Source: Streptomyces sp. NRRL WC-3605 (GTDB lineage: Bacteria; Actinomycetota; Actinomycetes; Streptomycetales; Streptomycetaceae). Taken from it: a stretch of 64,000 bases of DNA. The stretch is from positions 62,001-126,000 of the forward strand of contig NZ_LLZN01000067.1 of NCBI RefSeq assembly GCF_001509795.1, in the 5' to 3' direction. Within the stretch, counting starts at the first letter, position 1; each line of letters begins with the position of its first letter. Shown one piece after another: positions 57,508-58,950 of this stretch. The position numbers were made by a program, and so were the translations under genes. Under the pieces are notes generated by a model. The model was not told the origin of the DNA. It saw only the letters and a list, made by a program, of their open reading frames with translations, and did not search any database.

Positions 57508-58197
57508 GTGACCGACCCAGACGCCTCCCTCGATCCCGCCGCGCCCGATCTCGACCCGGCCGCGATGCGCAAGCACTACCGGGCCGAGGGCCTCGCCGAG
57601 CGCGACCTGGCCGACGGCCCGGTGGAACAGTTCGCGCGCTGGTTCCGGCAGGCCGCGGCACAGGCCCACCTCTTCGAACCCAACGCCATGATCGTCTCCA
57701 CGGCCGACGGCGACGGCCGGCCCAGCGCGCGCACCGTCCTGCTGAAGCAGTTCGACGAGCGGGGCTTCGTCTTCTACACCAACTACGAGTCCCGCAAGGC
57801 CCGCGACCTCGCCGAGAACCCGTACGTCTCGCTGCTGTTCCCCTGGCATCCGATGGCCCGCCAGGTGATCGTCACGGGCGTCGCGCGGCGCACCGGGCGG
57901 GACGAGACCGCCGCCTACTTCCGCACCCGGCCGCACGGCTCCCAGCTGGGGGCCTGGGCCAGCGGCCAGTCGTCCGTCATCGCCTCCCGCGCCGAGCTCG
58001 ACGCGTCGTACGCGGAGCTCGCGGCCCGCTATCCCGAGGGTGTGGAACAGGTGCCGGTGCCGCCGCACTGGGGGGGCTTCCGGGTCGCGCCGAGCACGGT
58101 CGAGTTCTGGCAGGGCCGGGAGAACCGGCTGCACGACCGGTTGCGGTACGTGGCGGAGCCCGACGGCGGCTGGCGGGTGGAGCGGCTCAGCCCCTGA
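57508..58197 (+). CDS. pdxH: Pyridoxine/pyridoxamine 5'-phosphate oxidase
   Basis: A 229-residue FMN flavoprotein: [20 protein letters not shown] at the N-terminus, [39 protein letters not shown] (FMN site), [16 protein letters not shown] and [20 protein letters not shown] with C-terminal [19 protein letters not shown]. It oxidises PNP or PMP to PLP, vitamin B6 cofactor. GTG 58197's opposite end: the start is GTG 57508, 6 nt after CAGGAT, so probably a leaderless mRNA. Its neighbour ridA (58540) detoxifies reactive products of PLP enzymes, an attractive functional link. Confidence 0.95.
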
Positions 58198-58239
58198 GCG
58201 GTCCGGCCCCGGGCGGCCGGGGCGGCCCCGGAAACGCAG

Positions 58240-58310
58240 CGACCCGCGAGCTCTGGTCCCTCCGCCGGGGCGGGGGAGCCGGCCGGACGTACCGGCGAGC
58301 TCGCGGGTCG
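58240..58310 (-). repeat. Inverted repeat forming a large stem at the 3' end of the minigene transcript
   Basis: CGACCCGCGAGCTC (58240-58253) is exactly repeated in reverse complement at 58297-58310, enclosing 43 nt that can pair further (CCGCC/GGCGG-rich). It lies after pdxH and, on the minus strand, downstream of the 12-codon minigene, so it may end that transcript or pdxH. A smaller hairpin (GCGTGT/ACACGC) lies near 58335-58355. Confidence 0.55.
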
Positions 58311-58388
58311 GGTGACTGCGTGGAATTGGCCGGCTGCGTGTATCACTCACACGCTGGTCCGGCACCGCACGTGGTGGGTGACGGGCCG

Positions 58389-58427
58389 CTAGCCCGCAGC
58401 CACCTCTTCCGTCCGGTATGCATACAT
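58389..58427 (-). CDS. Candidate minigene encoding a 12-residue peptide
   Basis: The minus strand has GGAAAGGAGGTG (58448-58437), a match of 10 or more bases to the 16S rRNA 3' end, 9 nt before an ATG (58427-58425). The frame reads M-Y-A-Y-R-T-E-E-V-A-A-G then TAG. A consensus promoter lies just upstream and stable hairpins downstream (58240-58310). Such strong signals on a 12-codon frame suggest a leader peptide, a regulatory peptide or an sRNA that titrates ribosomes. No larger downstream gene follows on this strand (pdxH converges). The peptide resembles nothing I know. Confidence 0.5.
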   Translation of the reverse strand: MYAYRTEEVAAG

Positions 58428-58460
58428 CTGCCGAACCACCTCCTTTCCGAAGTACAGCCC

Positions 58461-58489
58461 ACCTTAAGAACCCCACCGGCCACGCTCAA
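58461..58489 (-). promoter_or_regulatory. Consensus promoter for the minus-strand minigene
   Basis: TTGAGC (58489-58484), a 17-nt spacer and TAAGGT (58466-58461) give a near-ideal HrdB-type promoter reading left. The start would be about 58454, only a few nt before the Shine-Dalgarno sequence. It is back to back with the ridA promoter (TTGGAC 58502-58507, TAGCGT 58527-58532). Confidence 0.65.
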
Positions 58490-58539
58490 CCCCTTTTTTT
58501 CTTGGACGCCGGCGACCCCTCTCACCTAGCGTTCCGCGC

Positions 58540-58950
58540 ATGACGGAGCGAGGCGGGGTGCGGACGGCGATCCTGAGCGGATCGACGTTCGAGGAGCAGA
58601 TCGGGTACGCGCGGGCGGTGGTCGACGGCGACCGGGTGCACGTGTCCGGCACGACCGGGTTCGACTACACGACGATGACCATCTCCGAGGACGTGGTGGA
58701 GCAGGCCGAGCAATGCCTGCGCAACGTGGGGGCGGCGCTCCAGGAGGCGGGGGCCACCTTCGCCGACGTGGTGCGGGTGCGCTATCTGCTGCCCGACCGG
58801 GACGACTTCGAGCCCTGCTGGCCGGTGCTGCGCCGGTACTTCGGCGAGGTGCGCCCGGCGGCGACGATGATGGTGTGCGGGCTCTCCGACCCGCGGATGC
58901 GCATCGAGATCGAGGTCTGTGCCAGGAAGGGGAGTGGGACGGGTGCCTGA
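58540..58950 (+). CDS. RidA-family enamine/imine deaminase
   Basis: A 136-residue RidA/YjgF protein: RVHVSGTTGFDYTTMTISED, VVEQAEQCLRNVGAALQEAG and PAATMMVCGLSDPRMRIEIE. The last stretch usually holds the catalytic Arg (R in PRMRIEIE). It hydrolyses reactive enamines made by PLP enzymes. ATG 58540 lies 7 nt after TAGCGT, leaderless by appearance. The GNAT gene overlaps its 3' end by 8 bp, giving a two-gene unit, and pdxH lies upstream. Confidence 0.9.
   Translation: MTERGGVRTAILSGSTFEEQIGYARAVVDGDRVHVSGTTGFDYTTMTISEDVVEQAEQCLRNVGAALQEAGATFADVVRVRYLLPDRDDFEPCWPVLRRYFGEVRPAATMMVCGLSDPRMRIEIEVCARKGSGTGA

Follow-up and report, generated by a model that had tools for sequence, protein, structure and literature searches.

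A conserved actinobacterial RNA, RF02471, carries a short reading frame that is also a predicted strand of its fold

The 12-codon minigene on the minus strand of the 64-kb Streptomyces stretch analysed here (the window) is the 5′ portion of a conserved RNA belonging to the known family RF02471 (Ms_IGR-5). In a cmscan search against Rfam 15, RF02471 is the sole window match over gathering score (95.2 bits, cut-off 45; E 4.9e-20), and the match is full length, covering model positions 1–184 of 184 at window positions 58453–58234 of the minus strand. From sequence comparison we propose, with confidence about evenly balanced, that the locus is an autonomous structured RNA gene whose conserved job needs ribosome binding and passage through about 10–17 codons, the peptide being a by-product. 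The promoter, Shine-Dalgarno (SD) sequence, ATG and 12-codon frame ending in TAG that a first-pass annotation of this DNA had described are all present at their places on the minus strand, as is its long-armed hairpin. The features of the locus are as follows.

58461–58489, minus strand: promoter, from the sequence, with −35 TTGAGC (58489–58484), a 17-nt spacer and −10 TAAGGT (58466–58461)
58234–58453, minus strand: whole small RNA RF02471 / Ms_IGR-5, about 220 nt, from cmscan and model R1
58433–58447, minus strand: extended SD GAAAGGAGGTGGTTC, which pairs with nearly the whole single-stranded 16S tail
58389–58427, minus strand: ORF, from the sequence, with start ATG 58427–58425, 12 codons MYAYRTEEVAAG and stop TAG 58391–58389
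58410–58416, minus strand: P_A box CCGGACG within the ORF, with seven Watson-Crick pairs to 58289–58283 in the terminal-hairpin loop
58401–58406, minus strand: internal SD-like GAGGTG, from conservation, ending 9 nt upstream of the stop codon
58396–58404, minus strand: P_B 5′ arm GGTGGCTGC, codons 8–11, pairing with 58319–58311, from covariation outside the training set
58382–58396, minus strand: small hairpin CGGGC-UAGCG-GCCCG, from the sequence, whose loop holds the stop codon
58322–58327, minus strand: conserved AAUUCC linker ahead of the P_B 3′ arm, from the alignment of relatives
58311–58319, minus strand: P_B 3′ arm GCAGTCACC, from covariation with the ORF arm
58240–58310, minus strand: terminal hairpin with 14-bp arms (58310–58297 and 58253–58240), from the sequence and the Rfam alignment
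58283–58289, minus strand: P_A partner CGTCCGG in the inner loop of the terminal hairpin, from the sequence
57508–58197, plus strand: pdxH (PNPOx domains), convergent, from a domain search
58540–58950, plus strand: RidA-type gene (Ribonuc_L-PSP), divergent, from a domain search

Relatives of the RNA were collected with two models. RF02471 finds 60 of 61 genomes of the genus (Streptomyces) with a single match each, the missing one being a 740-contig draft, and 70 of 396 genomes of the phylum, again with a single match each, 35 of them over cut-off. Our own covariance model, R1, was built from 68 sequences, among them the window copy, which it scores at 88.4 bits. At E 0.001, R1 finds 153 of the 396 phylum genomes, a count that includes at least ten matches below 33 bits that may be chance; G066 and G282 have two matches each. 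R1 separates genuine from chance sequences, giving 39.9–90 bits to 15 genuine sources (14 outside the training set) and at most 22.6 bits to chance sequences selected by pattern. The nearest named loci are Streptomyces, and the window copy fits the family description, 'Actinobacteria'.

Sequences were read for all 60 genus matches, 61 of the 70 phylum RF02471 matches and 60 further R1 matches. Frame and fold were analysed in 131 non-redundant relatives, which the GAGGUG element helped to locate, and in a later set of 60, found by R1 and fetched without regard to frame. Frame selection is not wholly absent from the 131, as nine of the 118 named pattern matches were left out as chance partly for a missing stop (they are also coding-like, and R1 gives 10.9 bits to one and no match to eight); the later 60 are unfiltered for frame. 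The element finder missed six of 118 genus and other phylum loci, all found by R1 but outside the 131, and two of the remaining 221 sequences have a weak P_B call, with R1 scores of 56.1 and 84.6 bits. Within the later set, L289 and L290 duplicate two members of the 131, L333 is a near-repeat of L310, and L340, which is cut by a contig end, was left out of the P_A and P_B tests (later n = 59).

The 5′ end of the RF02471 match in the window agrees with the promoter, from whose position transcription would be expected to start at about 58453–58455. The promoter form TTGN3-N16–19-TAN3T lies upstream in 80 of the 131 non-redundant relatives, compared with none of 510 control stretches. Directly 5′ of the −35 box is an A-tract (58494–58500, minus strand), a region that by eye is A-rich in other Streptomyces too, and which may be a UP-like element common to the RNA and the divergent RidA-type gene.

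The pattern GAAAGGAGGTGRTYC, the complement of the 16S tail, has a single exact match in the 7.58-Mb draft genome, located at the SD site, with no site at one mismatch and 16 at two (27 for a reversed control pattern). When both strands of the 64-kb window were scanned in windows every 2 nt, the SD site gave the best duplex energy with the 16S tail, −26.9 kcal/mol, followed by −25.3. The mean duplex in the 131 relatives is −28.9 kcal/mol, some of them carry a perfect complement over the 16S tail (for example GAAAGGAGGTGATCC in L004), and GGAGGTGRTCC is present in 56 of the 59 later relatives tallied. Of nine other genomes searched, seven have the 16S 3′ end GGATCACCTCCTTTCT, among them both that belong to the same genus; it was not found in the source draft genome with a 20-mer and a 17-mer ending in GGATCACCTCCTTTCT. 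The view of the first-pass annotation that such signals are not expected by chance is borne out by the unique SD pattern, the E-value of the family match and the promoter counts.

A start-type codon at SD distance, followed by an open frame and a stop, is found in all 131 non-redundant relatives and in all 60 later ones, compared with 53.4 and 24.2 (about 40%) when the SD-to-box spacer is shuffled and 7.2 and 4.0 when the stop region is shuffled as well, in tests that are inflated by relatedness among the sequences. Canonical ATG, GTG or TTG starts account for 112 of 131 and 52 of 60 (24.6 and 11.1 with a shuffled spacer). Specifically, the distance from SD to element modulo 3 takes all values among the 131 (75, 32 and 24), yet 129 starts lie in the GAG frame (55 ATG, 37 TTG, 19 GTG, 10 CTG, 4 ATC, 2 ATT and 2 ACG) and only two in another. 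Stops at the expected place are TAG in 90, TGA in 28 and TAA in 11; a stop interrupts the GAG frame in one of the 131, and the other two frames in 91 and 113. Among the later 60, eight have non-canonical starts (ATT, ATC, ATA and CTG, two each), 50 are in the GAG frame and 10 are read one base out of it while retaining start and stop. The first-pass annotation had made its reading depend in part on conservation of start, frame and SD across species, and all three are conserved in both sets.

The peptide behaves differently from its start and stop, drifting from MYAYRTEEVAAG to, for example, LHSTSGGGSS and LLKTSGGDCR. The frame-shifted peptides (10 of 60) end in GGGSS, GGDCR, GGDCS or GGGS, and the box codon varies in its first base among CGG, AGG, GGG and TGG (Arg, Gly, Trp). 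From the frame counts set against those of shuffled sequences we infer selection on start and stop but, over the long run, none on the peptide; movement of a ribosome along the RNA, rather than the peptide, may thus be the point. A functional micro-peptide, regulatory or signalling, with an efficient ribosome site is in our judgement distinctly improbable. It would fit the conserved start, frame and stop, the common occurrence of RTREV or GTLEV, and the Glu-Val present in all 50 later GAG-frame sequences. However, the Glu-Val codons lie within P_B, and in L300 and L334 a change of GTG to GTA is accompanied, by eye, by a matching change in the partner; moreover, the variable box codon and the lineage with an unrelated peptide in another frame speak against it, and we found no amino-acid conservation beyond the RNA constraint. 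The regulatory peptide offered by the first-pass annotation thus lacks support, because the sequence drifts while start and stop stay.

The internal GAGGTG is present in 55 of the 59 later relatives; its invariance within the 131 is no evidence, because the element was used to locate them. Its GGTG is part of P_B and its GA lies outside both helices, and it may be kept for P_B alone.

In the predicted fold, helix P_B joins GGUGRCYG in the ORF to CRGYCACC directly 5′ of the terminal hairpin. P_B was assessed on 67 distinct sequences that lie outside the R1 training set and are not nearly identical to any of its members. In an alignment that was fitted to the P_B model, which favours P_B, paired cells amount to 83.8% (68.5% shuffled), the covariation score is 0.456 (0.180 shuffled; slid structures at most 0.078), and 93 cells are changed on both sides (25.4 shuffled). 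The number of pairs with changes on both sides, 6 compared with 5.0 shuffled, is not distinctive. Two pairs adjacent to the closing one are kept in roughly half of the rows only, in our opinion because bulged copies slip out of register. In a free search, a sequence's own P_B arm scores 22.5, the arms of other sequences 17.7 and a shuffled region 16.4, and the own arm is better in 178 of 190 sequences and in 57 of 59 later ones. Partner-shuffle z-scores are 16 for P_B and 12.9 for P_A, and we do not rely on them because they ignore relatedness and the helix positions were chosen by pairing.

Helix P_A connects the ORF's GGAC box with the terminal-hairpin loop. An exact 6-mer complement of the ORF box lies downstream in 67 of 131 sequences, compared with 22.2 expected from the boxes of other sequences, and in 33 of 59 later relatives, compared with 6.8 expected. 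In addition, five of six GGAT boxes face ATCC loops in place of GTCC. P_A is not universal, because 29 of 190 sequences have no exact partner of at least five pairs, a length that can itself arise by chance; these 29 include 11 of the 12 frame-shifted sequences and six of the seven from metagenome-assembled genomes (MAGs) that are unclassified or carry the label of another phylum. The 12 sequences with the frame shifted by one base (L112, L116, L287, L295, L298, L310, L318, L323, L331, L332, L333 and L337) are actinobacterial, and all but L323 lack an exact P_A partner of at least five pairs, so that the two traits, frame shift and P_A loss, coincide.

The stop-codon hairpin at 58382–58396 is similar, by eye, in other Streptomyces, and beyond Streptomyces a longer stem, P_C, holds the stop codon in its 5′ arm (also by eye). 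The AAUUCC linker (58322–58327), which is unpaired, separates the middle stem from the P_B 3′ arm and reads AAUCC in many relatives. With pseudoknots disallowed, the minimum-energy fold of the window RNA lacks P_B, at −121.1 kcal/mol compared with −117.1 kcal/mol when P_B is forced. The Rfam structure of RF02471 likewise contains neither P_A nor P_B; there, the ORF is paired with a portion of the SD. We rejected this SD:ORF stem as the dominant structure, given that the ORF bases in question covary with the 3′ arm. The SD extension could also form a hairpin with the GGAC box (GUUCGG:CCGGAC here), in competition with P_A.

Because the coding strand is part of P_B, and of P_A in many Actinomycetota, a translating ribosome and the fold would be mutually exclusive. 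On our proposal of a ribosome-dependent RNA gene, the SD would capture a 30S subunit whose path is blocked by the folded core, and a ribosome passing through would open P_A and P_B. At the end of its passage the ribosome would have the stop codon in its A site, and GAGGUG would lie 5–6 nt upstream of the P-site codon, a spacing like that of an SD, at which, on geometry, the element could pair with the anti-SD and hold the ending ribosome. The RNA may thereby trap or report free, initiating 30S subunits, toggling between an open form bound by a ribosome and a folded one.

The ribosome-dependent reading has to be weighed against a plainer one, in which the RNA acts in trans as a base-pairing sRNA, or as an anti-SD decoy simply titrating 30S subunits, and the ORF is incidental. 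Rfam classes RF02471 as an sRNA, its SD is the sole exact 16S-tail match in the genome, and Streptomyces transcripts have been reported: the RNA is present in S. lividans as SLIV_16488, with RNA-seq validation given as 'yes' (PMC8079986), and is listed as an sRNA unit in S. avermitilis (PMC8780764). We nonetheless consider the plainer reading rather unlikely, since an incidental frame would not hold in every sequence of both sets when about 40% of shuffled ones pass. The 'sRNA' named among the options of the first-pass annotation proved apt, inasmuch as the RNA is RF02471.

Other portions of the published record bear on transcription and ribosome occupancy. In M. smegmatis, the transcript ncMSMEG15794c overlaps IGR-5 (PMC10454040), and ribosome footprints lie on the RNA in M. 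abscessus and M. smegmatis, in a study which cautions that most E. coli ncRNAs are also footprinted (PMC4974804). Ribo-seq in S. coelicolor places ribosomes on 31 of 230 sRNAs (PMC4895711). Term searches of the main texts on sRNA-coded peptides (PMC5521070) and mycobacterial Ribo-seq (PMC4633059) returned nothing on the RF02471 RNA. An identity with scr2736 was dropped, as S. lividans carries both at separate loci according to the relevant portions of PMC8079986 and PMC8388888. The literature searched, as far as its text was accessible, gave no function for RF02471, and the published texts searched, supplements aside, gave no description of its ORF, P_A or P_B; the ORF, both helices and the broader distribution thus appear to be new as far as searched.

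No gene lies directly downstream on the minus strand, as the first-pass annotation had said, because pdxH is convergent and the RidA-type gene divergent; a citrate synthase gene lies beyond pdxH in the window. The neighbours of the RNA differ between genera. By tblastn of the fetched stretches, pdxH is present at 45 of 69 genus loci and ridA at four of 69, and both are absent from all 49 other phylum loci. Among the named loci listed, of which up to 8 kb was covered in each case, pdxH lies nearby in 18 of 118 and ridA in none. A vitamin B6 or PLP-stress element tied to pdxH and ridA, as the first-pass annotation had supposed, would suit the site between these two genes and the frequency of pdxH nearby in the genus. 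The scarcity of ridA and the lack of either gene at the 49 loci leave that link unsupported, and we regard it as very improbable indeed.

The same neighbourhoods bear on a leader peptide or attenuator, in which translation of the frame would control termination or translation of a downstream gene. A short frame that is translated, alternative pairing and an immediately following hairpin all resemble such a device, and in some relatives a same-strand gene does follow the RNA, including two Bryobacterales MAGs, where we take it by eye to be rpmE-like, and the L128/L188 pair, where it is presumably YtoQ-like. However, no same-strand downstream gene is conserved: the next gene in the window is the convergent pdxH, which is itself missing from all 49 other phylum loci, and the neighbours vary by genus. 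Furthermore, the Streptomyces reports give the RNA as a separate sRNA (PMC8079986, PMC8780764). A leader or attenuator is therefore improbable. The 'leader without a downstream gene' suggested by the first-pass annotation comes close, because translation is what is conserved.

The range of the RNA extends beyond the Actinomycetota, a statement that rests on the named matches listed and on MAG labels, single ones of which may be wrong. Among the matches listed are MAGs labelled Nitrospinae, Deltaproteobacteria, Sumerlaeota, Bryobacterales (two), Zixibacteria and Spirochaetia, and an unclassified bacterium; by eye, these copies have an SD, a frame, P_B (in weaker form in some) and a hairpin resembling a terminator. 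With RF02471 at E 0.1, five of eight such copies (L128, L154, L168, L188, L191, L232, L176 and L205) give no match, the Zixibacteria-labelled copy scores 55.9 bits, above the Rfam cut-off, and two further copies score 28–29 bits, from which we conclude that the Rfam model under-covers the family. R1 gives 43.4, 40.2 and 39.9 bits to three of the eight that were outside its training set. An Acidobacteriota-labelled copy (L214) resembles an acidimicrobial sequence. Ten nearly complete genomes of the same class (G068, G272, G283, G315, G326, G374, G401, G365, G197 and G346) have neither an RF02471 nor an R1 match, and are apparent losses. Carriage by viruses was considered and rejected: none of 18 viral-contig pattern matches has a stop at the expected place, and the 17 scored by R1 reach at most 22.6 bits.

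The RNA described here is the same as Rfam RF02471 in its full-length match above cut-off, its 5′ end and its terminal hairpin, and differs from the Rfam account in having P_A and P_B and in its range, 70 of 396 phylum genomes with the Rfam model compared with 153 with R1. Leader peptides and translated uORFs show that the act of translation can outweigh its product and that RNA structure can compete with the ribosome; the RF02471 RNA, in contrast, has no conserved downstream gene and is described as a separate transcript. At the rpsO operator, ribosomal protein S15 entraps the 30S subunit at a pseudoknot. The SD and start of the RF02471 RNA would similarly adjoin a pseudoknotted fold that may be capable of holding a 30S subunit, whereas no protein ligand or encoded ribosomal protein is known for it. 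Structured RNAs with a short translated frame also include tmRNA, SgrS and RNAIII, which code for a functional tag or peptide; the RF02471 RNA is likewise a structured RNA with a short frame, but its peptide is not conserved. It differs from tmRNA further in showing neither the tRNA-like domain nor the tag, and ARAGORN found no tRNA or tmRNA gene in the window. A structural precedent for the SD itself is the extended SD of S. aureus, in which start-proximal extension of the pairing tolerates a G:U pair and non-canonical start codons (PMC13009471). The SD of the RF02471 RNA shares the start-proximal extension and the tolerance of G:U and odd starts, whereas the S. aureus cases are ordinary mRNAs, and here almost the whole 16S tail is covered ahead of a tiny frame.

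Taken further, the comparisons allow the tentative suggestion of a new RNA class, a stand-alone ribosome-operated switch or trap, whose obligatory micro-ORF encodes a freely drifting peptide and forms one strand of the core fold, and which may sense or store initiating 30S subunits, being ancient, wide in the Actinomycetota and reaching other phyla. RF02471 would thereby be recast as neither a plain non-coding RNA nor a peptide gene, with being translated as its conserved trait. If true, the supply of initiating ribosomes would be tied directly, at the molecular level, to the shape of an RNA that is usually single-copy in Streptomyces, mycobacteria and many other lineages, and sRNA catalogues may hold further RNAs whose translation, not product, is functional.
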